The notes under the pieces are model-generated. The model ran no database searches and was not told where the DNA came from. It saw only the letters and a program-made list of their open reading frames with translations. A stretch of 26,915 nt of DNA, taken from IMG/VR virus record IMGVR_UViG_3300031565_000304, positions 1 to 26,915 of that record. One strand, 5' to 3'. Origin of the DNA: a virus. Each line of letters opens with the position of its first letter. Within the stretch, counting starts at the first letter, position 1. Below, in pieces: positions 1 to 20,834 of the stretch. The position numbers were made by a program, and so were the translations under genes.

Positions 1-53
1 CAGTTTTATTACGTAATTATTCTGTCATTGAATATCATCTTCCGATGATAATG

Positions 54-135
54 TGAGGATGGTGGGACTCGAACCCACATGCCATTCGACACTGGTTTCT
101 TAGACCAGCCTGTAAACCAATTCCAGCACATCCCC
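54..135 (-). tRNA. tRNA-Leu (anticodon AAG)
   Basis: The minus strand folds as a class II tRNA. The acceptor GGGGATG pairs with CATCCTC with one G-T pair, the discriminator is A, and the anticodon stem CTGGT/ACCAG closes loop CTAAGAA, giving anticodon AAG. A 13-base variable region precedes T-arm GTGGG/CCCAC with loop TTCGAGT. Leu identity is supported by the Leu-like D region and A73. An AAG anticodon is rare in bacteria and would need A34-to-inosine editing to read widely. It is the last tRNA of operon 1 inside the window. Confidence 0.85.
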
Positions 136-140
136 ATAAA

Positions 141-203
141 TGAGACCACGTTCCGACCATAGCCAAGGATCGAACTTACGTATGCCTACTGCGTGGCTAC
201 TCA
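141..203 (-). other. structured spacer between tRNAs (tRNA remnant or small RNA element)
   Basis: The spacer between tRNA-Trp and tRNA-Leu is closed by an interrupted stem: TGAG at 141-144 pairs with CTCA at 200-203, and CCACG at 146-150 pairs with CGTGG at 192-196. On the tRNA strand it contains TAAGTTCGATCCTTGG, which resembles the 3' half of a tRNA with a T-loop, but there is no anticodon arm. It may be an eroded tRNA or a processing or structured element. Confidence 0.35.
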
Positions 204-208
204 TTTTG

Positions 209-295
209 CACGGGTAGGGGGATTCGAACCATAATGCATGCCTTACCATTTCTCCCCTTGGACGGAGAGTGTCTTACCAGTTAGACGATACCCGT
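209..295 (-). tRNA. tRNA-Trp-like (anticodon CCA), non-canonical loops
   Basis: Acceptor ACGGGTA pairs perfectly with TACCCGT. A1-T72 and discriminator G73 both fit bacterial tRNA-Trp. The D-arm GTCT/AGAC is intact. The anticodon region has T33 then CCA, but the perfect stem TCTCC/GGAGA leaves an 8-base loop (GTCCAAGG). An unusually long variable region contains AATG/CATT. The T-loop TTCGAAT is canonical, but only two of five T-stem pairs form. The operon leader peptide contains one Trp, which supports the Trp assignment. It may be functional with altered structure, or decaying. Confidence 0.6.
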
Positions 296-300
296 ATAAT

Positions 301-449
301 AAAGTAATTTGGACGAACCGTCCTTTTTGTACCGAGTCTGCTACTTAAATAGCATGCGCTGCATTGAAAGCGCACATCTAAAAAGTAAGCCTACGTGCCA
401 CGTTCGCACTTACGAGTTTCCATTACGAACCACGTTTCCAAATTACTTT
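301..449 (-). other. inverted-repeat-bounded structured spacer (element A)
   Basis: A perfect 13-bp inverted repeat (301-313 with 437-449) encloses a region that can form several hairpins on the tRNA strand: GGACG/CGTCC with a 3-base loop, TGCTA/TAGCA, TGCGCT/AGCGCA, and GTAAGTGC paired with GCAC plus TTAC. It fills the gap between tRNA-Ala and tRNA-Trp. No tRNA or plausible protein gene is visible. Strand is inferred from the flanking tRNAs. Confidence 0.5.
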
Positions 450-450
450 G

Positions 451-525
451 TGGAACAGGTGGGATTTGAACCCACGATCTTCTGCTTGCAAAACAGACGC
501 ATTAGCCAGACTATGCTACTGCCCC
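451..525 (-). tRNA. tRNA-Ala (anticodon TGC)
   Basis: Acceptor GGGGCAG/CTGTTCC (two G-T pairs), D-arm GCAT/ATGC, anticodon stem TCTGT/GCAGA with loop TTTGCAA giving TGC, T-stem GTGGG/CCCAC with loop TTCAAAT, discriminator A followed by CAA rather than CCA. It is a complete class I tRNA in operon 1. Confidence 0.93.
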
Positions 526-606
526 AAAATCCTCCCTGCTTTACCATGCGCTTTGTACTTCAGCACCAATTACTTGGCTAATGATTCGAACATTTCGCAG
601 GGGTTG

Positions 607-688
607 TCCTCTCGGAGAGACTCGAACTCTCACACCTCACGGCACTTGATCCTAAGTCAAGCGTGTCTACCAATTCCACCACGAGAGG
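607..688 (-). tRNA. tRNA-Leu (anticodon TAG)
   Basis: A class II tRNA. Acceptor CCTCTCG/CGAGAGG, D region TGGTGGAATTGGTAGACAC typical of Leu, anticodon stem CTTGA/TCAAG with loop CTTAGGA giving TAG, a long variable arm, and T-stem GAGAG/CTCTC with loop TTCGAGT. Discriminator A is followed by CAA. It reads CTN codons. Confidence 0.95.
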
Positions 689-693
689 GATTG

Positions 694-768
694 TGCTTCC
701 TGTAGGATTCGAACCTACGACTTCTTCCTTGTAAGGGAAGCACTCTGAACCAACTGAGTTAAGGAAGC
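694..768 (-). tRNA. tRNA-Val (anticodon TAC)
   Basis: Acceptor GCTTCCT/AGGAAGC, anticodon stem CTTCC/GGAAG with loop CTTACAA giving TAC, T-stem GTAGG/CCTAC with loop TTCGAAT, discriminator A followed by CAA. Its 5' end overlaps the last 10 bases, including the stop codon, of the upstream reductase gene, so tRNA maturation would cut into that message. Confidence 0.95.
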
Positions 769-1463
769 CTATTATTAAATTTAGATAAATCCATTTCGAT
801 TGTAGGAAGAACATCGTTGTACCAATCACCAATATCTGGTTTTGTTCTTTTTGCCAACTCAAAAACCGATTTGAATCGTGTGCCGATATTCCAAACACCA
901 GACCTATCTTCATTAATGAGTTCAATTATTTGACCAGCAATCACATCAACATAGTCAAAATTTCCCTTCACGTTCCCAAATGCTTTTTCATATGGAAATG
1001 GTGTTGGTTTAAATGAACATCTTACGAGCAAATAATCTTGAACTCTTAATTGGACGTGCGCATCTGAAAGTAATTTCGTATATGCATACCAAGTGTTTTG
1101 ATGAACAGGTACGTCTGTCTCTTTTTTTGCCGACCCCCCCTCGCTATTTGCGTAGATGTAATCCGTTGATATATGGACTAATTTGATGTATTCCGTGTCG
1201 CATATACTTGCAAGATTTGCGACAAATTCATAGTTTACATCCCAATGTTTTTGTCTTTCTTTATCGTAGGTGTTTGTATAACCAATACAGTTTACAACTA
1301 CGTCTGGATCGACATTCATTAATAAATCTGCAAAATCATCAAAGTTTTTAACCACATCAATTTCATCCTTTTCCATTGAGAGATATTCCCAACCCGTTTG
1401 CTTGATAATTTCCGACCCTAAAAGACCGTCACCTAATACTAATACTTTTGGATATTCATTCAT
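759..1463 (-). CDS. RmlD-like NAD(P)-dependent sugar reductase/epimerase (short form)
   Basis: A 234-residue extended short-chain dehydrogenase most like dTDP-4-dehydrorhamnose reductase (RmlD). The N-terminal Rossmann motif GDGLLGS (residues 11-17) binds the nucleotide. HISTDYIYA (98-106) holds the catalytic Ser/Thr region, and YAYTK (126-130) is the YxxxK catalytic pair. Family members usually run to about 280-300 residues, so the C-terminal substrate-binding part is shortened. In the host, RmlD makes dTDP-rhamnose for surface polysaccharides; a phage copy could act in nucleotide-sugar or surface modification, which is inference. The gene sits within tRNA operon 1, and its stop codon lies inside the tRNA-Val gene. 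Upstream are dyad symmetries and a possible TATATTTG box. The reductase fold is secure; the exact substrate is unknown. Confidence 0.8.
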   Translation of the reverse strand: MNEYPKVLVLGDGLLGSEIIKQTGWEYLSMEKDEIDVVKNFDDFADLLMNVDPDVVVNCIGYTNTYDKERQKHWDVNYEFVANLASICDTEYIKLVHISTDYIYANSEGGSAKKETDVPVHQNTWYAYTKLLSDAHVQLRVQDYLLVRCSFKPTPFPYEKAFGNVKGNFDYVDVIAGQIIELINEDRSGVWNIGTRFKSVFELAKRTKPDIGDWYNDVLPTIEMDLSKFNNRLP

Positions 1464-1478
1464 AATGCGTCATATTTT

Positions 1479-1501
1479 CCCCAAATATAATTATTTTGGG
1501 G
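1479..1501. promoter_or_regulatory. dyad upstream of the reductase gene containing a TATATTTG box
   Basis: Seven-base arms CCCCAAA/TTTGGGG flank an A/T centre about 16 bases before the reductase start. The minus strand of the dyad includes TATATTTG, matching the Bacteroidota -7 box TAnnTTTG; the nearest TTTG lies 23 bp upstream, longer than the usual 19-21. It could be a promoter-operator overlap. Confidence 0.35.
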
Positions 1502-1536
1502 ATAATATGCAACAAATCCCATAACGTTAAATACAT

Positions 1537-1573
1537 TTTACAAAATGGTGGGTTTTTGTAAATTATAATTTAC
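1537..1573. repeat. two overlapping palindromes in an intergenic gap
   Basis: TTTACAAAA (1537-1545) pairs with TTTTGTAAA (1554-1562), and a perfect 16-bp palindrome GTAAATTATAATTTAC lies at 1558-1573. Both lie between the small membrane protein gene and the reductase gene. They could be operator sites or a weak bidirectional hairpin. The A/T-rich composition makes chance possible. Confidence 0.35.
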
Positions 1574-1577
1574 ATTA

Positions 1578-1793
1578 TCATTTTCTTTTTAGAAATTTTA
1601 AAGGGTTTATCTTAGATAACACAAAATAAGATATAAAGAATAATACCGATGCAAGGTAAAAAACGGAAATTGAAATCCAGTAATTGCCTGTCATATCCAT
1701 TAACCATTTCAAAAGGGCATCGTAGCCTAATGGATTGAAAAATGTTCCAAGCATTAGGCAGAGGGTCGCTATTTTTTCTCTTGTTACCTTCAC
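1578..1793 (-). CDS. small two-helix membrane protein, function unknown
   Basis: A 71-residue protein with a weakly hydrophobic first segment (about residues 9-32) and a strong membrane helix (about residues 38-60), then a basic tail ending KFLKRK, suggesting a cytoplasmic C-terminus. The start is GTG at 1793, preceded by GGAAG three bases upstream; an ATG at 1803 in another frame gives a less protein-like product. It lies between tRNA-Glu and the reductase gene in operon 1, with a GTATTTAT element 39 bases upstream. No family recognised. Confidence 0.6.
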   Translation of the reverse strand: MKVTREKIATLCLMLGTFFNPLGYDALLKWLMDMTGNYWISISVFYLASVLFFISYFVLSKINPLKFLKRK

Positions 1794-1832
1794 TGTCTTC
1801 CATTTTTTTATGTTTTAATAAAATTATTTTAA

Positions 1833-1840
1833 ATAAATAC
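1833..1840 (-). promoter_or_regulatory. GTATTTAT element upstream of the small membrane protein gene
   Basis: An exact GTATTTAT in coding orientation, 39 bases before the GTG start at 1793 and just downstream of tRNA-Glu. It is a member of the repeated intergenic motif described in the findings. Confidence 0.45.
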
Positions 1841-1845
1841 TCTTG

Positions 1846-1917
1846 TACTCGGTAGGGGAATCGAATCCCTATTGCCGGGATGAAAACCCGAATTCCTAAC
1901 CGTTAGAAGAACCGAGC
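1846..1917 (-). tRNA. tRNA-Glu (anticodon TTC), copy 1
   Basis: Acceptor GCTCGGT/ACCGAGT with a G1-T72 wobble. Anticodon stem TCGGG/CCCGG with loop TTTTCAT gives TTC. T-arm AGGGA/CCCCT has an A53-C61 mismatch, with loop TTCGATT. Discriminator A is followed by CAA. Confidence 0.88.
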
Positions 1918-2036
1918 AAATTGAGCGGTGGAAAGGGAGTGTATGCCCTTATTACATGAGTCTCTATCGTGACTCAAAACCACAAAAACCGATGGACTTA
2001 ACCATTACTATCTTTCGACATTTCGATTTCGCTTTG
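1918..2036 (-). other. structured spacer between the two tRNA-Glu genes (element D)
   Basis: On the tRNA strand a three-hairpin fold is visible: ATGG/CCAT, then GTGG/CCAC enclosing GAGTC/GACTC and AAGGG/CCCTT. It superficially mimics a cloverleaf, but the loops lack tRNA consensus bases (no TTC T-loop, 8-base central loop). No protein gene is visible here. Confidence 0.4.
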
Positions 2037-2109
2037 TACTGCGTAGGGGGTTCGAACCCCTAATCTTCAGATTGAAGGTCTGACGGCTTACCAATTTGCC
2101 TAACGCAGC
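2037..2109 (-). tRNA. tRNA-Glu (anticodon TTC), copy 2 with C33
   Basis: Acceptor GCTGCGT/ACGCAGT with a G1-T72 wobble, a short D-stem GGC/GCC, anticodon stem TCAGA/TCTGA, and a perfect T-arm AGGGG/CCCCT with loop TTCGAAC. The anticodon loop is CCTTCAA, giving TTC with C at position 33 instead of the near-universal T. Discriminator A is followed by CAA. It duplicates copy 1 in isotype. Confidence 0.85.
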
Positions 2110-2278
2110 ATTTAATCGTCCGATAATCGTCTGGTTTATCCAGACAATCTTCCGATAATCGTCCGATTTTGTATCGTATATGACACTTTTTTACTGTTAT
2201 AGCGGTAATTTGTCTGGTTTCTCCAGACGAAAGTATTCTTTATGATACTTTTTACTGTTATAACGGTAAATTTTAAAG
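2110..2278. repeat. repeat-rich intergenic segment with hairpins and two 18-bp dyads
   Basis: The segment holds two GTCTGG/CCAGAC hairpins (2129-2145, 2212-2228), direct repeats of TCCGATAATCGTC (starts near 2119 and 2151), and two copies of an 18-bp imperfect palindrome: TTACTGTTATAGCGGTAA (2191-2208) and TTACTGTTATAACGGTAA (2252-2269). The paired dyads, each preceded by a T-rich ACTTTTT tract, look like operator sites or processing hairpins. No gene is visible. Confidence 0.5.
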
Positions 2279-2418
2279 AAATGCTTTGTCACTTGTTACG
2301 GATGATGGCTTTTTCATGCCACAGTCTCCTGCTTATTTAAGGCAGGTATGCTTATTACAACAACCCGTGTATCCTCATACCCCACACCCTCTCAATGTGG
2401 ACCGACAACAAAGCATTT
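2279..2418 (-). other. inverted-repeat-bounded structured spacer (element B)
   Basis: A perfect 10-bp closing stem, AAATGCTTTG (2279-2288) with CAAAGCATTT (2409-2418), encloses hairpins CCACA/TGTGG, GTAT/ATAC, CCTGC/GCAGG and TGGC/GCCA. The CCTGC hairpin and its AGTCT flank resemble part of element A. It abuts the 3' end of tRNA-Asp. Confidence 0.5.
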
Positions 2419-2419
2419 G

Positions 2420-2492
2420 CGGTACTGATGGGATTCGAACCCACGATCCCCTGCGTGACAGGCAGGTATCTTAACCACTGGACCACAGTACC
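2420..2492 (-). tRNA. tRNA-Asp (anticodon GTC), canonical copy
   Basis: Acceptor GGTACTG/CAGTACC, anticodon stem CCTGC/GCAGG with loop CTGTCAC giving GTC, T-loop TTCGAAT, discriminator G as expected for Asp, followed by CAA. Well formed. Confidence 0.95.
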
Positions 2493-2527
2493 AATTTATG
2501 GTCTCCGAAGAGACCTGATTTTAATAA

Positions 2528-2761
2528 TCAATTACTTCCAACTGGACCTTGAACGTGAACATGTCGCCTGTGTCCTTTTAGTTCTGCGCTCAGATTTAAA
2601 ACTTCTGCCACGTCATGAACACAATCCCTGAGAGGAACACCTTTTGTTCTTTTTTCACATTCACAGAGTCTTTCGAATTTCTTCACGTCATCCTCTGTCT
2701 TGACGTACTGCGTAAAATCGTATCCTAAATACGATACATACTTTTTCTGATCTTCAGTCAT
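2528..2761 (-). CDS. small protein of unknown function inside the tRNA operon
   Basis: A 77-residue soluble, charged protein with three Cys residues (two in CECE) and a His-rich tail (HRRHVHVQG). The start at 2761 is fixed by a strong Shine-Dalgarno AAGGAGGT four bases upstream; reading further upstream would run into tRNA-Asp. It lies between two tRNA-Asp genes. The strong ribosome site contrasts with other starts in the window, which lack one, and suggests high expression or different ancestry. No family recognised. Confidence 0.65.
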   Translation of the reverse strand: MTEDQKKYVSYLGYDFTQYVKTEDDVKKFERLCECEKRTKGVPLRDCVHDVAEVLNLSAELKGHRRHVHVQGPVGSN

Positions 2762-2765
2762 GATG

Positions 2766-2773
2766 ACCTCCTT
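2766..2773 (-). promoter_or_regulatory. strong Shine-Dalgarno site
   Basis: AAGGAGGT lies four bases before the ATG at 2761. It decides the start of the 77-residue protein and is an unusually perfect anti-16S match for this window. Confidence 0.75.
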
Positions 2774-2790
2774 TTTTAGATTAATAATTG

Positions 2791-2861
2791 CCGACCACGT
2801 GGGATTCGAACCCCTCCACCTCATAGACAGTGAGGCATACTACCATTATACTACGCAGTCG
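2791..2861 (-). tRNA. tRNA-Asp (anticodon GTC), aberrant T-stem
   Basis: Anticodon stem CCTCA/TGAGG with loop CTGTCTA gives GTC, and discriminator G73 fits Asp. Acceptor CGACTGC/GTGGTCG has two G-T pairs. The T-loop TTCGAAT is canonical, but only about three T-stem pairs form (AGGGG against CCCAC). It is the first tRNA after the promoter of operon 1. Either a functional variant or an eroding duplicate of the Asp gene at 2420. Confidence 0.75.
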
Positions 2862-2956: not shown

Positions 2957-2985
2957 AAAAAACCCGACTCTTGCGGGTCGGGTTT
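2957..2985 (-). terminator. intrinsic terminator/attenuator of tRNA operon 1
   Basis: A 9-bp stem (2960-2968 with 2977-2985, AAACCCGAC/GTCGGGTTT) is followed on the minus strand by TTTTTTGTTTT. It sits between the leader ORF and the tRNAs. GTCGGGT in the leader (3030-3036 as the minus strand) can pair over 7 bp with the 5' arm, which would prevent the terminator. Confidence 0.8.
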
Positions 2986-3006: not shown

Positions 3007-3117
3007 TTATATACCAGTTTTCGATCTATACCCGACTGAACATATCTCTTCCGCATCATCCACCCATAATAGGGCAACGAGTACCAAGTTCATCAATATG
3101 TTCATCACGTTTTTCAT
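3007..3117 (-). CDS. leader peptide of tRNA operon 1 (attenuator ORF)
   Basis: A 36-residue ORF that starts MKNVMNI and contains the run LVLVALLWVDDAEE (codons TTG GTA CTC GTT GCC CTA TTA TGG GTG GAT GAT GCG GAA GAG). These six amino acids are the isotypes of the nine tRNAs downstream: Leu x2, Val, Ala, Trp, Asp x2, Glu x2. It lies between a Bacteroidota promoter and an intrinsic terminator. A segment shortly after the run, within TCA GTC GGG TAT, can pair with the terminator's 5' arm. The second tRNA operon has a homologous leader start (MKNLVNI). The inferred role is to sense charged tRNA by ribosome stalling rather than to make a functional protein. The N-terminal hydrophobicity follows from the Leu/Val run and need not mean membrane insertion. 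Confidence 0.7.
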   Translation of the reverse strand: MKNVMNILMNLVLVALLWVDDAEEICSVGYRSKTGI

Positions 3118-3140
3118 CGTTTTCTAAATTTTATCTGGTA

Positions 3141-3171
3141 CAAAGGTAGCACCATTTTTCATAAATACAAA
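3141..3171 (-). promoter_or_regulatory. Bacteroidota-type promoter of tRNA operon 1
   Basis: On the minus strand TTTG (3168-3171), 19 bases and TACCTTTG (3141-3148) match the Bacteroidota primary-sigma consensus TTTG-N19-21-TAnnTTTG. The leader ORF starts 23 bases downstream of the -7 box. The same boxes and spacing occur at 8384-8414. Confidence 0.75.
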
Positions 3172-3204
3172 TTATTCTGGAAAAAAATTACTTTTTTTAT
3201 GAAT

Positions 3205-3459
3205 TTACTTCTTCGGGAGGTATTGTTTTGTTTTATCGTCCCTTAAAAACTCTTCAATCGCCCATGCTATGAATTGTGGAGCGATGCCATATCCATCAAT
3301 TTTTTCATATTTATCTACAATAGCTATCAATTCTTCTGCCATTTTCCCTGAATAATATTCACCCGCCTCATAACCAGCGTCTTCATTTAGTTTAAAATTG
3401 GGTTCGAGTTTATTTACCATTTCAAACAATTTTTGTTTAGTGTTTTCCTGTTTTTTCAT
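3205..3459 (-). CDS. hypothetical protein with (L)NE-type N-terminal segment
   Basis: An 84-residue, mostly helical, charged protein with no recognised domain. Its N-terminal third ends with FKLNEDAGYEAG; the KLNE fits the hydrophobic-x-Glu cleavage rule of T4-type prohead proteases, and similar segments occur in several other proteins here. It follows the 558-residue gene after a 12-base gap and is probably co-transcribed. A small packaged or virion-associated protein is possible; that is inference. Confidence 0.6.
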   Translation of the reverse strand: MKKQENTKQKLFEMVNKLEPNFKLNEDAGYEAGEYYSGKMAEELIAIVDKYEKIDGYGIAPQFIAWAIEEFLRDDKTKQYLPKK

Positions 3460-3471
3460 AATTAATATATT

Positions 3472-5148
3472 TTAATAATCATCGTCATATCTTTCACCCC
3501 ATTGGTTCGTTCCATCTGAATACCTTTCATATTCAGAGGGATCACGCATTTGTGAGCCACTGAGATTATACCAAGTATTTGTTTCTGAATCGTAAAGTTC
3601 TTCTGATTGACTTGGTGAATAATGTGCCTTTTCTAATTCCTTACCATTCATAAAATAACGTCTATCTCTTTTAATTTGACCTACTTGTTCAGGCGTTACA
3701 TTATTTTCCTTTGCAAATTTATCCCATTCTGGTTGTGCAAATAAATCATCTCGTTCGGTAACATATCTATCTTCAGAAATTGGATCGGTTTCACCGAGAA
3801 AGTCACCATCATTACTATAAATCCAAAATGATACTTTTCTTTCAAAATTATTATTGTTCTCGTTCAATGGCATTCCAGCCACTTTATTCATTCTCTCAAA
3901 GAGAAGTTTTTTTGCTTTTAGTTTTTTATTTTCATTAAGTTCTTCCATAACATCATAAATTATTGCAGTCAATTCATCTTGACTAATATCATCCTTAGTG
4001 TTGTTTACTATTAGGTTCATTAAATTCCATCTATCCTTTTTACTGTGGAGCGGATCATTGCCGTCTGCAAGAAATCTTTTAACAATACCTTCTGCTGTCT
4101 GATTATTGAGTTTACCTTGTAATTCATTAACTACAGATTCATCCTCGATCCCCTTTTTAAATCGTTTAGCGAGTGCCTTACGTGCGGGTGTGCAAGTATC
4201 TTTGGTCATTGGAGTACAATAACCCTTGTGTTCTGGATTAACTGCTTTTTGAATCCACTTATCATCTTTTTCATTTATCTTTAGATTCAACATCCCAATT
4301 TTGCTGATCGTTGTTAAAAAGTCATTATATAATCTATCCCAATGAGTTTCAAGTCCCATCCTATCAAATTCAGTTGCAATTTCTTGAGCTACCTTTACAA
4401 TATACTCTGCATTTGCTTGTTGTGGTGTAATATGACCATCATTTATTGCAGCATCAATTAATCTTTGATATGTTTCTGCATTATCTGGATATTGATATTC
4501 ATTTAACATTTCATTCTCTGCCAATTCAAACGCTTCCTTCATTTGTTTACTACCACCAAAAAGATTTTTAATCCCATTCCAAAGACCTCTTGCGTCTTGT
4601 TTAATCTCACTACCCTTTGATAATACTTTATGTAAAACTCTTAATACGAACAGAAAAATTGCTAATTTAAGCCAAAACTGACCACCAACCCCACCAAGAT
4701 CAATGGCGGTATCCATAAATTCGGTTCCAAACCATTGATTGAGTTTTCCAGCTAATCCATCTTGGCTAAGTGTTTGTTGTATAATATGCGAATTAAAAAG
4801 TGCACCTCGTACACCAAGAATTATTGATAATATCGTTGAACCCTTTAATAGAGTTTGAATCTTTCTCGCTTTAGATTGGTCATCAATTGAGGCAGCGAGA
4901 ACACCGGTTACTTTCTGATAAGTATCACCCGCTTGTTGTGCAACCTGTTGTCTTTTTGCTTGTCCTTCTGGTGAATTCCAATCAGGAATACCTAATTTTT
5001 GTTGTAGTTGATCGATTAGTTCACCACCCTTTTCACCAGTTTGTTGTGCTATTTTCTTACCTCTATTGAGAAAATCCTCATTAAGAGGCATTCCACCAGC
5101 CAAGTGCATTTTTTCAAAAAAGATTTCTTTATCTGTTTTATGCGCCAT
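3472..5148 (-). CDS. large membrane-associated protein with two MPLNE motifs, unknown function
   Basis: A 558-residue protein. The N-terminus carries FFEKMHLAGGMPLNED (residues 10-25). Two hydrophobic segments (about 104-120 and 155-173) could span a membrane, followed by a long charged helical region. A second copy of the leader-like motif, LLFERMNKVAGMPLNEN, occurs near residues 412-430, suggesting a duplication or an internal processing site. The C-terminal part is Tyr/Asp/Glu-rich (ends RYDDDY). It starts at ATG 5148, 15 bases after a CTATTTAT element that is inverted relative to one serving the divergent TonB-like gene. It could be an internal virion protein processed at MPLNE; no family recognised. 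Confidence 0.6.
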   Translation of the reverse strand: MAHKTDKEIFFEKMHLAGGMPLNEDFLNRGKKIAQQTGEKGGELIDQLQQKLGIPDWNSPEGQAKRQQVAQQAGDTYQKVTGVLAASIDDQSKARKIQTLLKGSTILSIILGVRGALFNSHIIQQTLSQDGLAGKLNQWFGTEFMDTAIDLGGVGGQFWLKLAIFLFVLRVLHKVLSKGSEIKQDARGLWNGIKNLFGGSKQMKEAFELAENEMLNEYQYPDNAETYQRLIDAAINDGHITPQQANAEYIVKVAQEIATEFDRMGLETHWDRLYNDFLTTISKIGMLNLKINEKDDKWIQKAVNPEHKGYCTPMTKDTCTPARKALAKRFKKGIEDESVVNELQGKLNNQTAEGIVKRFLADGNDPLHSKKDRWNLMNLIVNNTKDDISQDELTAIIYDVMEELNENKKLKAKKLLFERMNKVAGMPLNENNNNFERKVSFWIYSNDGDFLGETDPISEDRYVTERDDLFAQPEWDKFAKENNVTPEQVGQIKRDRRYFMNGKELEKAHYSPSQSEELYDSETNTWYNLSGSQMRDPSEYERYSDGTNQWGERYDDDY

Positions 5149-5163
5149 GATTTTCAGTTTAAT

Positions 5164-5181
5164 ATAAATAGTTCTATTTAT
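5164..5181. promoter_or_regulatory. divergent pair of CTATTTAT elements
   Basis: ATAAATAG (5164-5171) and CTATTTAT (5174-5181) form a perfect inverted repeat with a 2-base centre. One copy points to the minus gene starting at 5148 and the other to the plus gene starting at 5232. In both directions the element reads CTATTTAT toward the gene. Confidence 0.55.
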
Positions 5182-5231
5182 GATAAAAAGCGTGGCACGA
5201 TAATTGAACTTTAAATTTAAAATATCATGAT

Positions 5232-6494
5232 ATGAAAAAAATACTATTAATCTTATTCACAGCACTTTTAATGATCCCTCTTTGGGGACAAGAAAGAGAA
5301 CTCTCAGATTACGAAAAATATCGTATGGAGAAGGAGAATGAATTATACCAAACAGAAGAAGAAGTTTTCTTCATTGTTGAGGACATGCCTAAGTTTCAAG
5401 GGGAAGATGGAAAAGAATTTCGCAAATACATTGCCGAAAACGTAAAATATCCAGAAGAAGCTGTAAAAAATGGTGTCACAGGAAAAGTGATCATTTCTTT
5501 TATTGTAAATAAAGAAGGTAAAGTGGTAAACGCTAAAGTAGAGAAAAGTGTTGATCCCTATCTTGATGCTGAAGCAATTCGAGTAGTTGAATCATCACCA
5601 AAATGGATGCCCGGTAAACAACGTGGTAAAGCTGTTAATGTTCAATTCACTTTTCCAATTAATTTTGTTTTAGACACACCAGTTGAGTCTGAAACCGTAG
5701 TAATTAATAACTATTACGACTATACTCAGCCAAATCTCCGTTTTAATCTTGCTTTTGGCTACGGATACGGTTATCATTACCAGCCTTATTATGGTTATTA
5801 TGATAACTGGTACGGATATTACCCGTACAATTATTACGGATACGGATATTATCCATACTATGGTTATAATTACTATTACGGACACAACCATTACTATGGT
5901 CATAATTATTACAACTACGGATATTATTCACGTCCACGTGGTCAGAGATATGCTACTTCAAATGCATTGGGTTGGAACAGAAATTACTACAAACCATATA
6001 ATAAGACATATAGTAGTGGTTATGTGAGTGCGCCAACAGCAGCCAAGAAAAATGTGGTTACTACCAGAACACAATCTACGAGACCAACATATAGTGAAAG
6101 TAATAGAAGTTATACTCCAACATATAAGAATCCAAGAATGTCTACACGTCCTTCATATAACAGTACAACTACCAGAAGTAAAACAACATCTGTACAACCG
6201 CAATCAAGAAGTGTGCAGCAAAGAAGTACAACGGTACGTACACAATCAAGTACAACCAGAAGTACAAGTTCGTATAGCAGACCTTCATCGAGTACAAGAC
6301 CTACGTATCAAAAGTCGGCTACACAAAGTAGGAGTTATAGTGCTCCGTCCAGAAGTAGTTATAGTGCGCCTTCAAGAAGCAGTTCAAGTTATAGTAGACC
6401 ATCAGGATCAAGTTCGTCTGGTAGAAGTTACTCAAGCGGAAGTGCCAGCAGGAGTTCCAGTGGGAGTGCCAGCAGGAGTGGTGGAAAGAAATAA
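5232..6494 (+). CDS. secreted TonB C-terminal-domain protein with Tyr/Gly-rich and Ser/Arg-rich tail
   Basis: A 420-residue protein. Residues 1-20 form a signal peptide (basic start, hydrophobic core, ending LWGQ). Residues about 48-147 are a TonB_C domain with the typical Bacteroidota pattern: KYIAENVKYPEEA, VTGKVIISFIV, DPYLDAEAIRVV, PKWMPGKQRG. Normal TonB proteins have an N-terminal membrane anchor and a Pro-rich spacer; here the domain follows the signal peptide directly. It continues into a Tyr/Gly/His-rich stretch (about 161-235) and a Ser/Thr/Arg-rich low-complexity tail. It would be exported, perhaps acting at the periplasm or outer membrane on TonB-dependent receptors, for example in superinfection control; that is inference. 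It ends tail-to-tail with the next gene with no gap. The tail has a different base use from its neighbours, which may indicate a host-derived gene. Confidence 0.8.
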   Translation: MKKILLILFTALLMIPLWGQERELSDYEKYRMEKENELYQTEEEVFFIVEDMPKFQGEDGKEFRKYIAENVKYPEEAVKNGVTGKVIISFIVNKEGKVVNAKVEKSVDPYLDAEAIRVVESSPKWMPGKQRGKAVNVQFTFPINFVLDTPVESETVVINNYYDYTQPNLRFNLAFGYGYGYHYQPYYGYYDNWYGYYPYNYYGYGYYPYYGYNYYYGHNHYYGHNYYNYGYYSRPRGQRYATSNALGWNRNYYKPYNKTYSSGYVSAPTAAKKNVVTTRTQSTRPTYSESNRSYTPTYKNPRMSTRPSYNSTTTRSKTTSVQPQSRSVQQRSTTVRTQSSTTRSTSSYSRPSSSTRPTYQKSATQSRSYSAPSRSSYSAPSRSSSSYSRPSGSSSSGRSYSSGSASRSSSGSASRSGGKK

Positions 6495-6953
6495 TTATTG
6501 AAAAATGGATGGTGGATCAATATCTAAACTTGGGTCATTCTCAAAATAAGGGGGTCCACCACCATGTATTTTATCAAACGTTTCAAATTCTGCTTTGATG
6601 TTTAATGCGCCCCCTGCGTTATTTGTGTGAATGTATATCTTTTGAGGTACTTCAAGATCATTGTCAAGACAATAATTTGTTAACCAGTGAGCACAATCCA
6701 ATCCTGTTTTTTCGTTATCAGGATCATAATCTTCGTAATCCTTTTCTAAAAAAAGATCAAACCCCAAATCATGGTCAAATGAAATTGCTGCTGGAATACC
6801 ATGTTCCTTAATATAACTAATAAAATCTTCATAGTTACGTACAATAATCCACTCTAACTCTTTATATATTGGTGATTCTTTGAAATAGGCATCTAAGGGA
6901 TTCCGATAATCATCAAGAAATAGATTATATGTCGTTTTGTCTTTCATCAACAT
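6495..6953 (-). CDS. cyclic-phosphate processing receiver (cREC) domain protein
   Basis: About 152 residues. The motifs LFLDDYRNP, VRNYEDFISYI, AISFDHDLGFD and KTGLDCAHWLTNYC match the cREC family, receiver-like domains common in phages and implicated by genomic context in cyclic phosphate or RNA-end metabolism. The acidic DD and DHD residues sit where metal binding is expected. The start is ambiguous: ATG 6953 or ATG 6947; a TTG at 6965 is less likely. It overlaps the upstream 49-residue gene by about 29 bases, so translation is probably coupled. It is the last gene of a four-gene small-protein operon. Confidence 0.75.
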   Translation of the reverse strand: MLMKDKTTYNLFLDDYRNPLDAYFKESPIYKELEWIIVRNYEDFISYIKEHGIPAAISFDHDLGFDLFLEKDYEDYDPDNEKTGLDCAHWLTNYCLDNDLEVPQKIYIHTNNAGGALNIKAEFETFDKIHGGGPPYFENDPSLDIDPPSIFQ

Positions 6954-7074
6954 CTTTTTTTCCAAGTCGTCTACGTTTCTTTGAGGTGAATCTTTTTAAC
7001 CAGCCTCTTACGTGACCAGCATATTCACCATTGATCGCTGAATTTTCTTTACTCCCAACTCTTGTCTTAGCCAT
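6925..7074 (-). CDS. 49-residue basic protein
   Basis: A short gene starting MAKTRVGSKENS with a Lys/Arg-rich middle (WLKRFTSKKRRRLGKKD). Its ATG overlaps the end of the preceding gene (shared AATGGCTAA) and its 3' end overlaps the cREC gene, so this is a tightly coupled operon. The positive charge suggests nucleic acid binding. No family recognised. Support comes from the overlap architecture and plausible composition. Confidence 0.6.
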   Translation of the reverse strand: MAKTRVGSKENSAINGEYAGHVRGWLKRFTSKKRRRLGKKDVDERQNDI

Positions 7075-7333
7075 TTCTTAATTCCCTTTTTACTTTCTCC
7101 CAGTTTCGAATTCCTTCTAAGTCTTTTACGTTTATACTAAATCTTGGGATGAGACCACCTTCAACCTTTTCCGTAATAATGATAGTCACATCATTTTGTA
7201 ATTCTTCTGGATCGTACATGGTGGGCGTGATGATTGGTTCGAATTTATCGATCTCCAAGTCTTCAATGCACTTCTTAAAATATTTTAGAAGTTCCTCTGC
7301 ATTTATTTCAGTTATTTTAGCGACCTTGCCCAC
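7067..7333 (-). CDS. small hypothetical protein, GTG start
   Basis: An 88-residue acidic protein beginning at GTG 7333 (MGKVAKITEINAEELL). It has a helical start and then a beta-rich part (VTIIITEKVEGGLIPRFSINV). It overlaps the upstream 45-residue gene by 17 bases and the downstream 49-residue gene by 8 bases. No family recognised. Confidence 0.6.
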   Translation of the reverse strand: MGKVAKITEINAEELLKYFKKCIEDLEIDKFEPIITPTMYDPEELQNDVTIIITEKVEGGLIPRFSINVKDLEGIRNWEKVKRELRNG

Positions 7334-7454
7334 GATATTTCTTTTGGTAGTTCTTTGAAGTTACAAGTTTGCTTGACTTGGATTTTGCATGAACGCCTTT
7401 ACGTTTTTGTTTCCCTTGAGAAACCCTTGTTGAATGTGTACTTACTTTTGCCAT
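7317..7454 (-). CDS. 45-residue Lys-rich basic protein
   Basis: Starts MAKVSTHSTRVSQGKQKRKG and ends KKYRGQGR, with about a third Lys/Arg. It is the first gene of the operon, 16 bases downstream of a good Bacteroidota -7 box. It resembles small ribosomal-protein-like or RNA-binding peptides in composition, but I cannot place it in a family. Its 3' end overlaps the next gene's GTG start. Confidence 0.65.
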   Translation of the reverse strand: MAKVSTHSTRVSQGKQKRKGVHAKSKSSKLVTSKNYQKKYRGQGR

Positions 7455-7470
7455 TTCTTTAAGTTTTTTA

Positions 7471-7501
7471 CAAAGATATTAAAATAAATGCAACCCGCAA
7501 G
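7471..7501 (-). promoter_or_regulatory. Bacteroidota-type promoter of the small-protein operon
   Basis: On the minus strand CTTG (7498-7501), 19 bases and TATCTTTG (7471-7478) match TTTG-N19-TAnnTTTG with one change. Its upstream half lies inside the terminator hairpin that ends tRNA operon 2. Confidence 0.65.
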
Positions 7502-7509
7502 AGTTGCAT
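7481..7509 (-). terminator. terminator at the end of tRNA operon 2
   Basis: A 7-bp stem ATGCAAC/GTTGCAT (7488-7494 with 7503-7509) with loop CCGCAAGA is followed on the minus strand by TTATTTT. It closes the tRNA transcript ten bases after the last tRNA-Gln and overlaps the next promoter. Confidence 0.65.
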
Positions 7510-7518
7510 TAAAAAAAG

Positions 7519-7591
7519 TTGTCCCCGCAAGGCTCGAACTTGCACTCGCCTGAACCAAAATCAGATGTGTTACCAATTACACCAGAGGACA
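7519..7591 (-). tRNA. tRNA-Gln (anticodon TTG), copy 1
   Basis: Acceptor TGTCCTC/GGGGACA with the weak T1-A72 pair typical of Gln, D-arm GTGT/ACAC, anticodon stem TCTGA/TCAGG with loop TTTTGGT giving TTG, T-stem GCAAG/CTTGC with loop TTCGAGC. Last tRNA of operon 2. Confidence 0.92.
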
Positions 7592-7596
7592 AAATG

Positions 7597-7668
7597 ACAA
7601 CCAGAGGGGACTCGAACCCCTGTAACCAGACCCACAATCTGGTGCTTTACCAGTTAAGCTACTGGAGG
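7597..7668 (-). tRNA. tRNA-His (anticodon GTG), acceptor-stem anomalies
   Basis: Anticodon stem CCAGA/TCTGG with loop TTGTGGG gives GTG, and the T-arm AGGGG/CCCCT with loop TTCGAGT is perfect. The acceptor CCTCCAG/CTGGTTG has two T-pyrimidine mismatches, and the apparent discriminator is T rather than the C expected for His. The 5' strand reads as CAAC and CCAG interrupted by TCCT, so an insertion may have broken it. The 5' end is uncertain by a few bases. Confidence 0.7.
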
Positions 7669-7670
7669 AG

Positions 7671-7743
7671 TTGACCCGGCAGGATTCGAACCTGCAATCT
7701 TCTGATTCAAAGTCAGACGTGTTAACCGTTACACTACGGGTCA
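7671..7743 (-). tRNA. tRNA-Gln (anticodon TTG), copy 2
   Basis: Acceptor TGACCCG/CGGGTCA with T1-A72, D-arm GTGT/ACAC, anticodon stem TCTGA/TCAGA with loop CTTTGAA giving TTG, T-stem GCAGG/CCTGC with loop TTCGAAT, discriminator A. Well formed. Confidence 0.93.
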
Positions 7744-7748
7744 ATATG

Positions 7749-7824
7749 GGGTGAAAGACGGGGTATGATCCCGCATGCTCCTGATTCACAGTCAGGTGAG
7801 TCTACCAATTCCTCTACAATCACC
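7749..7824 (-). tRNA. tRNA-His (anticodon GTG), aberrant T-loop
   Basis: Anticodon stem CCTGA/TCAGG with loop CTGTGAA gives GTG, and discriminator C73 is the His-specific base. The D-stem GAG/CTC is present. The T-stem GCGGG/CCCGT forms, but its loop is ATCATAC instead of TTCnAnT, and the inner two acceptor pairs are T-T. It complements the other His gene, which has a good T-arm but a poor acceptor. Confidence 0.72.
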
Positions 7825-7829
7825 ATGTT

Positions 7830-7969
7830 AAAACGGACAGGATTTTCACCTTGATCTATCCCCTCATATGGGGACCGTGTTGTTGCCGTACACCTTTCGT
7901 CAACCTTCATCGAGCGTTCCCTCTCGAATTCAGATGGTTACTTAATGCAAAGTATTACACCACCGTTTT
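7830..7969 (-). other. inverted-repeat-bounded structured spacer (element C)
   Basis: AAAACGG (7830-7836) pairs with CCGTTTT (7963-7969) and encloses hairpins TCCCC/GGGGA, CGAG/CTCG and GTTG/CAAC on the tRNA strand. It lies between the long-arm tRNA-Pro and tRNA-His. No gene is visible. It is similar in size and plan to elements A and B of operon 1. Confidence 0.45.
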
Positions 7970-7971
7970 TG

Positions 7972-8067
7972 TCGGGCATGTGAGATTCGAACTCACGGTC
8001 CACACTACCCTTGTGCAGACACTGGTTTCCAAGACCAGCAGCTTAAACCAAACTCGCTCAATACCCG
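7972..8067 (-). tRNA. tRNA with proline anticodon TGG and long variable arm
   Basis: Acceptor CGGGTAT/ATGCCCG with C1-G72 and A73 (bacterial Pro identity elements). Anticodon stem CTGGT/ACCAG with loop CTTGGAA gives TGG. T-arm GTGAG/CTCAC with loop TTCGAAT is canonical. Between the anticodon and T arms is a 25-base variable region forming an 8-bp stem GTCTGCAC/GTGTGGAC, a class II feature normally confined to Leu, Ser and Tyr. Prolylation is likely from its identity bases, but charging by SerRS or LeuRS cannot be excluded. Confidence 0.85.
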
Positions 8068-8074
8068 TTGTTGG

Positions 8075-8147
8075 TCGGGGTAGCCAGACTCGAACTGACG
8101 ACCTCGTGCTCCCAAAGCACGCATACTACCAACTGTACTATACCCCG
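8075..8147 (-). tRNA. tRNA-Pro (anticodon TGG), canonical
   Basis: Acceptor CGGGGTA/TACCCCG with C1-G72 and A73, anticodon stem CGTGC/GCACG with loop TTTGGGA giving TGG, T-stem GTCAG/CTGGC with loop TTCGAGT. It is the only tRNA here with a full CCA encoded after the discriminator. First tRNA after the operon 2 leader. Confidence 0.93.
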
Positions 8148-8161
8148 ATTATTTTCAAAAT

Positions 8162-8171
8162 GTAAAGAACA
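8162..8171 (-). promoter_or_regulatory. boxA-like antitermination element before tRNA operon 2
   Basis: The minus strand reads TGTTCTTTAC immediately after the leader terminator's T-run and 14 bases before tRNA-Pro. It matches the boxA core TGYTCTTTA. It occupies the equivalent position to the element at 2933-2942. Confidence 0.55.
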
Positions 8172-8172
8172 C

Positions 8173-8202
8173 AAAAAACCCCACTCATTTCTGAATGGGG
8201 TT
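8173..8202 (-). terminator. intrinsic terminator/attenuator of tRNA operon 2
   Basis: The stem AACCCCA/TGGGGTT (8177-8183 with 8196-8202) is extended inside by TCA/TGA and followed on the minus strand by TTTTTT. It sits between the leader ORF and the tRNAs. Its 5' arm, CCCCATTCAG on the minus strand, is perfectly complementary over 10 bases to the leader segment at 8244-8253. Confidence 0.85.
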
Positions 8203-8243
8203 CTTAATCACAAAATTCTACATGAAATTCGTTAACGTACCTT

Positions 8244-8253
8244 CCCCATTCAG
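8244..8253 (-). promoter_or_regulatory. antiterminator arm of the operon 2 attenuator
   Basis: On the minus strand CTGAATGGGG pairs over all 10 bases with the 5' arm of the terminator (CCCCATTCAG, 8191-8200 complement), so the two hairpins exclude each other. The arm overlaps the leader's TGA stop codon, so a ribosome finishing the leader would cover it and allow termination. Confidence 0.65.
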
Positions 8254-8306
8254 CATCCTTGTGGATGTTGTTGCGGTTGGGGTTGTATGTTAACTAAATT
8301 TTTCAT
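8250..8306 (-). CDS. leader peptide of tRNA operon 2 (attenuator ORF)
   Basis: An 18-residue ORF, MKNLVNIQPQPQQHPQGC. Nine consecutive codons specify only Gln, Pro and His (CAA CCC CAA CCG CAA CAA CAT CCA CAA), the three isotypes encoded by the six tRNAs downstream (Gln x2, Pro x2, His x2). It has a Bacteroidota promoter upstream and a terminator/antiterminator pair downstream, with its stop codon inside the antiterminator arm. A CCCCA in the Gln-Pro-Gln codons can also pair with TGGGG of that arm, giving a 1-2-3-4 arrangement like amino-acid operon attenuators. The first seven residues match leader 1 in pattern (MKN, V/L, x, NI). Too short to detect by coding statistics; the evidence is architecture and composition. 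Confidence 0.75.
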   Translation of the reverse strand: MKNLVNIQPQPQQHPQGC

Positions 8307-8383: not shown

Positions 8384-8414
8384 CAAAGGTAAAAAAAGAA
8401 ATTGATTCTGCAAA
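8384..8414 (-). promoter_or_regulatory. Bacteroidota-type promoter of tRNA operon 2
   Basis: On the minus strand TTTG (8411-8414), 19 bases and TACCTTTG (8384-8391) fit the consensus exactly and equal the operon 1 promoter in both boxes and spacing. The leader ATG lies 77 bases downstream, after several AAAGACTG-type repeats. Confidence 0.8.
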
Positions 8415-18770: not shown

Positions 18771-20834
18771 ATGGAGATAGAAGAAAAAAGTCCAAGTATT
18801 AGTCCCGAACACGTTCCCTTGATACCTCTTGATCCGAAACTTCAAAAGTTAAAGGAAGAGAAAAGGAAACTTGAAAAGGCATTAAGAAAGGCGGGTAAAC
18901 TACCAGAACCAATTATTGTCACACAAAGTGGTGATTTGAAGAAGGTTAGTGAACTATCTATGGCTGAAAGGGAGTATGAGATTATTAGATGTGCCTCTAA
19001 TCCAATATATTTTATTGAAACCTATTTAACTATTTTCGACCAAACACAGGGTGAAGGTGGTCAAATCGTACCGTTTGCTCTGTTTGATTTTCAGAAGGAA
19101 TTAATCAATACTTATCTTGATGAACGGTTTGTGATTGCTAACAAATATCGTCAGGCGGGTATCTCAACAACAACTTGTGCATATATTGCATGGTATGTGA
19201 TGTTTAAATCACATCGTAGTGTGGCAATTGTTGCGGATAAACTTGAAACAGCACGTGATGAATTAATGAACGATGTGGTTGACTTTATTGATGGTTGTCC
19301 TGATTGGTTGAGACCACATCCAGATGTTAAAGACACTCAAAAACTAAAGAGATATGATAATGGCTGTCAGTTGAGTGCATTCTCATCAAAAGGTCTTCGT
19401 GGTTATACTCCAACTTTATTGTTTTGGGATGAAACAGCATGGACAGAGAAATCAGATAAATTCTGGACATCTGCAAAACCAACTCTTCAAACTGGTGGTC
19501 GTGCAATTATGGTATCTACACCAAACGGTCTTGATCCAGTGTTCTACAAAACTTTCGAAGCTGCAAGACAAGGAAAAGAGAAGAGTACATTTAAGGCAGT
19601 TGAACTTTGGTGGTTCAATGACCCACGCTACAATAAAGGTTTGAGATGGGTTAAGAACAAGGGAAGAGAGAATGAGTTTGAGCGAATTGACACTGGCTTT
19701 ACTGATGCCGAGCGAATAAAAATGATGGATGATGGCTGGCAAGCAACATCTCCTTGGTTTGAAGAAGAGATTAAGAGTGCCAACGGTGATATGCGTAAGA
19801 TTGCACAGGAAATTTTATGTTCATTCCTTGGATCAGGTGACAACTTTATTGCAGAGGAGTTTCTGAGAAGAATTGAAGAGACGGAGATTAGACCTTTTCT
19901 ACGTCAAGAATATACTGACAAAAATTTCTGGATTTGGGAAGACCCAATTCATGGGACAGAGTATATAATGGCAATTGATGCTTCACCGGGTCACGGTGAA
20001 GATAATTCAACAATTAATATTCTCAAAGTTATTAATATTGTTGAAGAAAAGGAAGTTATAGAAAACGAAAAAATAAAAATTGTTAAAGTAAAAAGGCAGA
20101 AAGTGGAACAGGTTGCCGAATATTACGGTAAAGTTACACCACAATTACTTGCCGAAATAGCATATCAATTTGGTAAAAGATATAACAATGCGTATGCTGT
20201 TATTGATATCACTGGTGGATATGGTGTTCAAACGATTGAGAAATTAATTGATGTTGGTTATGGCGGTGAATATGGAAAGGAAACTGAGAACATTCATTAT
20301 GCAGAGGTTTCTCATAAACCATCCAGAGATAGACTCCAAGGTTACATTAAAAAGGGACAGAAAATAATGTCAGATGGTTCTATCATCCCCGTTGATTTGA
20401 TACCCGGTTTCTTTATCGGTCAAAACAGACCTTCGGTGCTTCTTGAGATGCAGAGAGCGATCCATTTAGAGGATGTAATCATCAGGTCAATAAGATTGCT
20501 CAATGAACTTAAAACGTTCGTTACAGTGGCTGGAAACCGTGTTGCTGACCATAAGAGATCATTCCACGATGATTCAATCATGGGATTGGCAATTGGTTTG
20601 TATGTTCTGAATTTTGACATGGCTCGTTTTAGACAAAATAAGGGTGCTACTAAAAAAATGTTGGATGCTATGCTCATGGCAAATGATCCTGAAAAAATGG
20701 CTGAAATGAAGAAGAAGTTGGAGGATGACAAGGAAAAGAAGAATATACCCATATTATCAAAGAATAAAGGAAACCCTGATTTACAGAAACATGTTGCAAA
20801 TGCTTGGTTGTTTAATGGGATAAAACAAAAGTAA
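18771..20834 (+). CDS. terminase large subunit (T4 gp17-like)
   Basis: A 687-residue DNA-packaging motor. The ATPase half has a Walker A-like KYRQAGISTT (about residues 125-134, a deviant form typical of terminases), Walker B LLFWDE (about 216-221) and the coupling motif VSTPNG. The RNase H-like nuclease half has MAIDASPG (about 400), AVIDITG, and HDDS (about 598), supplying the catalytic Asp residues. The C-terminal tail is charged. It cuts concatemeric DNA and pumps it through the portal, whose gene follows 71 bases later. The N-terminus has a Lys/Glu-rich extension of about 70 residues. No small terminase is obvious within the window. Confidence 0.95.
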   Translation: MEIEEKSPSISPEHVPLIPLDPKLQKLKEEKRKLEKALRKAGKLPEPIIVTQSGDLKKVSELSMAEREYEIIRCASNPIYFIETYLTIFDQTQGEGGQIVPFALFDFQKELINTYLDERFVIANKYRQAGISTTTCAYIAWYVMFKSHRSVAIVADKLETARDELMNDVVDFIDGCPDWLRPHPDVKDTQKLKRYDNGCQLSAFSSKGLRGYTPTLLFWDETAWTEKSDKFWTSAKPTLQTGGRAIMVSTPNGLDPVFYKTFEAARQGKEKSTFKAVELWWFNDPRYNKGLRWVKNKGRENEFERIDTGFTDAERIKMMDDGWQATSPWFEEEIKSANGDMRKIAQEILCSFLGSGDNFIAEEFLRRIEETEIRPFLRQEYTDKNFWIWEDPIHGTEYIMAIDASPGHGEDNSTINILKVINIVEEKEVIENEKIKIVKVKRQKVEQVAEYYGKVTPQLLAEIAYQFGKRYNNAYAVIDITGGYGVQTIEKLIDVGYGGEYGKETENIHYAEVSHKPSRDRLQGYIKKGQKIMSDGSIIPVDLIPGFFIGQNRPSVLLEMQRAIHLEDVIIRSIRLLNELKTFVTVAGNRVADHKRSFHDDSIMGLAIGLYVLNFDMARFRQNKGATKKMLDAMLMANDPEKMAEMKKKLEDDKEKKNIPILSKNKGNPDLQKHVANAWLFNGIKQK

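Follow-up and report, generated by a model that had tools for sequence, protein, structure and literature searches.

The stretch analysed here, the IMG/VR virus record IMGVR_UViG_3300031565_000304 (26.9 kb, hereafter the window), carries two tRNA clusters, both on the minus strand and each with one leader-terminator unit ahead of it. Comparison of these units with their counterparts in other phages strongly suggests that ribosome-mediated transcription attenuators control phage tRNA operons and would sense a shortage of the very charged tRNAs that the operons encode (our probability for this reading is about 0.9). The sensor stretch of leader 1, LVLVALLWVDDAEE, stands ahead of Asp, Glu, Val, Leu, Ala and Trp tRNAs, and that of leader 2, QPQPQQHPQ, ahead of Pro, His and Gln tRNAs, the leader residues being those given by a previous reading made from the letters alone (the sequence-only reading). 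Its statement that the amino-acid sets of leader and operon are identical holds for the quoted sensor cores and fails for the whole open reading frames (ORFs), which contain residues outside the set (M, N, I, C, S, G, Y, R, K and T in leader 1; M, K, N, L, V, I, G and C in leader 2). All-P/H/Q 9-mers and all-L/V/A/W/D/E 14-mers were absent from the 352,586 sequence windows taken from the long ORFs of these phages. The elements of both units are listed below (‘class A’, ‘class B’ and the like are group names coined in this analysis).

Promoter 1: 3141..3171, minus strand; TTTG at 3171-3168, 19 nt spacer, TACCTTTG at 3148-3141
Leader ORF 1: 3007..3117 (3117..3007), minus strand; MKNVMNILMNLVLVALLWVDDAEEICSVGYRSKTGI; class B homologues in many relatives
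Region 2 of attenuator 1: 3030..3036, minus strand; GTCGGGT, antiterminator arm inside leader 1, predicted partner 2985-2977 (-13.2 kcal/mol)
Region 3 of attenuator 1: 2977..2985, minus strand; AAACCCGAC, common to terminator and antiterminator
Region 4 of attenuator 1: 2960..2970, minus strand; GAGTCGGGTTT followed by a T run, terminator 3′ arm
Promoter 2: 8384..8414, minus strand; TTTG at 8414-8411, 19 nt spacer, TACCTTTG at 8391-8384
Leader ORF 2: 8250..8306 (8306..8250), minus strand; MKNLVNIQPQPQQHPQGC; class A counterparts wherever a relative has a tRNA-Pro cluster
Region 2 of attenuator 2: 8244..8252, minus strand; TGAATGGGG
Region 3 of attenuator 2: 8192..8203, minus strand; GAACCCCATTCA
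Region 4 of attenuator 2: 8174..8187, minus strand; TGAGTGGGGTTTTT

Promoters and terminators are in place as the sequence-only reading had it, since a TTTG-N19-TACCTTTG promoter, an ORF starting with MKN and an intrinsic terminator precede both clusters; the TTTG-N19-TAnnTTTG arrangement is presumably a promoter of the Bacteroidota type. What that reading did not mention is the antiterminator: the 3′ arm of the terminator is duplicated near the end of each ORF, GTCGGGT at 3036-3030 repeating that of leader 1 and TGAATGGGG at 8252-8244 being a close copy of that of leader 2. Because region 2 is nearly a copy of arm 4, arm 3 can pair with either of them, giving the terminator in one case and the antiterminator in the other. 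The predicted energies of terminator and antiterminator are -15.3 and -13.2 kcal/mol in leader 1 and -20.1 and -17.8 kcal/mol in leader 2, and the antiterminator pairing was equalled or beaten by 22 of 2000 shuffled sequences for leader 1 and by none of 2000 for leader 2. The UGA stop of leader 2 lies inside region 2, so that a terminating ribosome would cover this region.

On this anatomy, RNA polymerase would start at the TAnnTTTG promoter and a ribosome would translate the leader. With every charged tRNA that the leader names in good supply, the ribosome would reach the stop codon and cover region 2, the 3:4 terminator would form and the tRNA genes would stay off. When one charged tRNA is short, the ribosome would stall in the sensor stretch, the free region 2 would pair with arm 3 and no terminator would form, and the operon encoding the scarce isotype and its partner isotypes would be transcribed. 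An untranslated leader would form a 1:2 hairpin that favours termination. We infer this sign of the response from the geometry, because region 2 lies at or past the end of the sensor. The genomes examined spread their isotypes over several such operons, the sets being largely different.

The match between leader residues and isotypes was measured with a detection procedure (RNA arms plus an overlapping ORF) that is blind to isotypes, the ORFs being picked by position and not by residues; families were formed by average linkage, single linkage having been dropped since nearly everything merged. Over 39 leader families, the mean Matthews correlation coefficient between sensor residues and operon isotypes reached 0.517, compared with 0.009 (standard deviation 0.045) for shuffled pairings (z 11.4), and none of 200,000 shuffles was as high, their maximum being 0.231. 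For the 13 families with nearly disjoint tRNA sets, z was 7.2 and the observed value was reached by none of 500,000 shuffles. An isotype of their own operon is named by 71% of the sensor residues, when 32% are expected. An out-of-sample scan with previously unused arms (TTGGGT and CAGGGT) gave 24 families (z 5.7, 0 of 300,000 shuffles), with new matches such as IIRMRIIR (Arg, Ile, Met), NLNINLNNLNTCVMNITV (Asn, Leu, Ile, Thr, Val, Met, Cys) and a poly-Leu leader before five tRNA-Leu genes. Shuffled pairings were the check that the sequence-only reading had proposed, and leader residues predict the downstream isotypes in all three separate tests.

In addition, the RNA arms alone are enough to find such operons. 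In viral contigs, the pattern GAATGGGG..ACCCCATTC..GARTGGGGTTT returned 30 loci, and a P/H/Q leader with downstream Pro and His/Gln tRNAs was present in 30/30; GTCGGGT..ACCCGAC..GTCGGGTTTT returned 12 loci, with leader and tRNAs in 12/12. A looser TCGGGT pattern gave 88 stretches. Among the 88 arm matches examined, two of them from bacterial genomes, tRNA genes lie directly downstream in 74/88, and 4 of the other 14 are truncated by the contig end. One arm pattern run on bacterial genomes produced two matches, with tRNAs near neither. These searches uncovered dozens of leaders that are unrelated in sequence and match their own operon (K/Y, I/R/T, E/R, D/C/G/R, poly-Leu and others). As examples, TYQPKQTQGGKP precedes Pro, Gln, Tyr, Thr, Gly and Lys tRNAs; KQIVKHVIQFCQNWYLRVF precedes Phe, Ile, Gln, Lys, Val, Tyr, Cys, His, Arg, Trp, Leu and Asn tRNAs; FVMTLTVLFQFTQT precedes Gln, Phe, Thr, Val and Leu tRNAs; and IKITRITRKRRTT precedes Thr, Arg and Ile tRNAs, with NISNWRRNSH-type leaders before Ser, His, Trp, Asn and Arg tRNAs and IRIERREETNR before Glu and Arg tRNAs.

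Relatives of the window were collected through the terminase, without leader input (80 loci; the tRNA scan covered 41 records, and 24 contigs that were large or bore tRNAs were read whole); the 558-amino-acid product of a neighbour gene, used as bait, found no relatives. The terminases of the carriers range from ~71% down to 31% identity to that of the window, and none was detected in several records. Five tRNA groups recur: {Pro, His, Gln}; {Asp, Glu, Val, Leu, Ala, Trp}; {Leu, Met}; {Lys, Tyr}; and {Cys, Ile, Ser, Asn, Phe, Gly, Thr, Arg}. Of the records that have a tRNA-Pro cluster, the window among them, 24/24 carry the P/H/Q leader (22 after merging two near-identical pairs), typically as MKNLVNIQPQPQQHPQxxEWGxYA; the window's own class A frame ends ahead of EWG. 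An arm is weakened in G027, and in G038 the leader frame would begin at ATA. Leaders of the second group resemble MKNLLDILMVVLAVDLLWADAEDKLCLVG, that of the fourth is YYYGKKSYKK and that of the fifth NINISSTINSRNGESIFCSSFTGRN. In related phages, the leaders lie behind TAnnTTTG promoters and in front of terminators and are conserved as frames; each of the computational checks proposed in the sequence-only reading came out in its favour. Five leader peptides searched against named phages gave no convincing match.

The leaders also follow their operons through rearrangement. In G040 (terminase 57% identical), the fifth group is split into two operons, each with a matching leader: ITITQITRIRGTKT before Thr-Arg-Ile and FLNLNNNPSNLNSNFISGNIFLGTC before Phe-Ile-Ser-Gly-Asn-Leu-Cys. 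Behind the K/Y leader of the same genome, the next gene is called Leu by ARAGORN, although its sequence reads as tRNA-Tyr (GTA), and Lys (TTT) follows. In L212, the P/H/Q operon has gained a tRNA-Arg and its leader has gained an R. An apparent reverse case, in which G039 would have lost tRNA-His together with the H of the leader, was wrong, since Rfam shows a weak extra tRNA reading GTG (His).

Both the RNA structure and the coding frame appear constrained. In an alignment of 29 class A sequences, the 3:4 terminator has four pairs changed on both sides (0/500 shuffles), and the 2:3 antiterminator has three pairs with compensatory change (4/500 shuffles; covariation score 0/500) and 97% of its cells paired. 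In three sequences, an A-to-G change in arm 3 is matched by a T-to-C change in region 2 plus the corresponding change in arm 4, and 57 distinct region 2 sequences occur across 118 leaders. Region 1 pairs better with the region 2 of the same leader than with that of a relative (class A 0/100,000; class B 31/100,000), a fit that would explain the conserved leader ends. At the coding level, the ratio of nonsynonymous to synonymous polymorphism (pN/pS) is 0.31 in the class A leader frame and 1.28 and 2.01 in the shifted frames; the leader frame is under purifying selection. Leaders are moreover enriched in codons that are rare in these phages (CTC 15% versus 3%, CGC 25 versus 2, GAG 45 versus 13), an enrichment of the sensors to which RNA pairing may contribute.

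Several observations weigh against control by attenuation. In the out-of-sample scan, tRNAs were found at 41/93 arm matches and none downstream at 52/93, 9 of these being at a contig end; some families of the automatic scan match poorly, partly from wrong-frame ORF choice or early contig ends. The permutation tests ignore phylogeny, and some families are distantly related to each other. A leader of their own was sought for the Leu-Leu-Met clusters of the relatives and none was found. The 1:2 hairpin is predicted in both window leaders, yet it differs between relatives, RNAalifold gives no consensus 1:2 helix, and its support is weaker than for the other helices. Finally, stalling on the final codons of the sensor may leave region 2 partly covered by the ribosome, and extra tRNA is no help where the amino acid itself limits.

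This last point also bears on the rival explanation that survives best, namely that the stalling leaders sense amino-acid starvation of the host and that the tRNA genes form a starvation programme and not a refill of missing tRNAs. A leader cannot distinguish an uncharged from an absent tRNA, and the trp, his and leu biosynthetic operons use the same anatomy; however, the targets here are tRNAs and not enzymes, additional tRNA does not cure an amino-acid shortage, and chemically unrelated amino acids are grouped in the operons, so we regard this explanation as unlikely while giving it appreciable weight. Far less probable is that the leader peptides work as small proteins in their own right (e.g., in synthetase binding) and merely share the transcript: conserved class A ends such as MKNLVNI and EWGxYA would fit, but these ends coincide with the pairing RNA regions 1 and 2, the window's own frame lacks EWG, and composition tracks the tRNA set across families of little sequence similarity. 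Nor do ordinary terminators with chance frames or small genes, the residue match being a coincidence among many frames, seem credible. Short ORFs are common, several frames compete and the automatic frame rule is wrong at some loci; nevertheless, ORFs chosen by position beat all shuffles in each test, pN/pS exceeds 1 only outside the class A leader frame, and the out-of-sample scan already refutes coincidence. A direct binding of uncharged tRNA of the T-box type, with an incidental leader ORF, would share the uncharged-tRNA input and tRNA-related targets and is just as implausible, since the leader-isotype match needs translation and Rfam scans found no T-box (stem I, specifier loop, T-box sequence) in the window or in ten related loci, the latter giving only tRNA and a group I intron.

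The tRNA genes of the window are as follows.

tRNA operon 1: 53..2861, minus strand; runs past the left edge of the window
First genes of operon 1, minus strand: Asp 2861-2790, Asp 2492-2419, Glu 2109-2036, Glu 1917-1845
Remaining genes of operon 1, minus strand: Val 768-693, Leu(tag) 688-606, Ala 525-450, degenerate Trp-like 295-208, Leu(aag) 135-53
tRNA operon 2: 7518..8147, minus strand; Pro 8147-8072, Pro 8067-7971, His 7823-7747, Gln 7743-7670, His 7668-7596, Gln 7591-7518

These genes agree with the isotype lists of the sequence-only reading, Trp being the least secure. The degenerate tRNA at 208-295 (minus strand) has an expanded variable region, an isotype call of ‘???’ and 24.7 bits only; we read its anticodon loop as CCA-like (Trp), which makes it the weakest putative member of operon 1. 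That reading had also named tRNAs of other isotypes beyond the left edge as evidence against it, and none is called in the nearest relative, L225, whose operon holds Asp, Asp, Glu, Glu, Val, Leu, Leu, one undetermined, Ala, Ala, Leu, Trp and Trp. Elsewhere, the window encodes a T4-like terminase (18771-20834) and a portal protein (20906-22873), and a nucleotide-sugar epimerase-like gene (phrog_540; 759-1463, minus strand) lies within operon 1. A spacer of the same operon (2270-2418, minus strand; ~140 nt) has complementary ends, AAATGCTTTGT..ACAAAGCATTT, and a stable fold, keeps 76-87% identity across about ten relatives and has no Rfam match; it is a candidate structured RNA. Further spacers between tRNA genes (296-449, likewise with complementary ends, and 7824-7970, both minus strand) are on the 150 nt scale and are kept in some relatives. 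Among the relatives, a Leu(taa)-Leu(caa)-Met cluster recurs downstream of operon B in class B phages (e.g., G028:42733-43903), with neither leader nor terminator of its own. CTA-anticodon (called Pyl) or Stop-called tRNAs, possibly suppressors, occur at G010:159544, G040:230500 and in L256, and in G043, G050, G071 and G044 the terminase homology is broken into pieces by inserts, possibly introns or inteins.

The type of mechanism is classical. In Escherichia coli and Salmonella, the trp, his, leu, thr and ilvGMEDA operons are controlled by ribosome-mediated transcription attenuation, with multi-amino-acid leaders in ilv and thr. The phage units share with trp/his-type attenuators a leader ORF rich in control codons, regions 2-4 and a putative region 1, the choice between terminator and antiterminator, control codons upstream of region 2 and the use of rare codons. 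In contrast, they would control phage tRNA genes and not biosynthetic enzymes, a single leader could monitor as many as 16 or more isotypes, and several leaders per genome divide the amino acids among them. Antitermination on aminoacyl-tRNA shortage would also be shared with T-box riboswitches, which, unlike these leaders, recognise tRNA by direct binding and act mostly on synthetase and biosynthesis genes. Phage tRNAs have been described as a counter-defence that replaces tRNAs cut by host anticodon nucleases (PMC10264068, PMC11555353); those studies concern tRNA sequence and function, whereas ours concerns the control of expression, and a text search of PMC10264068 found neither attenuation nor leader mentioned. 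The nearest account in the literature (PMC4448311) is a speculation about a Bacillus tRNA operon, and the literature searched, without subscription papers and most preprints, held no description of phage tRNA operons under leader-peptide control. As far as checked, what is new is the tRNA-gene target, a sensor for several isotypes and the way in which several leaders of one genome share out the amino acids.

As for the use of such circuits, the odds are about even that they supply tRNA on demand where host tRNAs have been cut or depleted or cannot keep up with the codon demand of the phage, and the natural trigger may lie in host defences that cleave tRNAs, in codon demand or in starvation. 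More tentatively, and on balance doubtfully, the attenuator tRNA regulons of huge phages could act as a tRNA-damage sensor, in which a host defence cuts a tRNA, the leader that names this tRNA stalls its ribosomes and the operon with the replacement is released; if true, this would be a general RNA-only counter-defence circuit whose target is recognised by codon. Practically, each leader would be a ready multi-isotype charging sensor, leaders can guide the search for tRNA operons in phage DNA that lacks annotation, and being predictive they can correct tRNA calls, as for the Leu call of G040 that reads as Tyr. Why phages carry tRNAs has been debated for decades, and a leader that names the isotypes of its operon would show which shortage is expected and when the tRNAs are made, so that the codon-supply and counter-defence ideas become testable.

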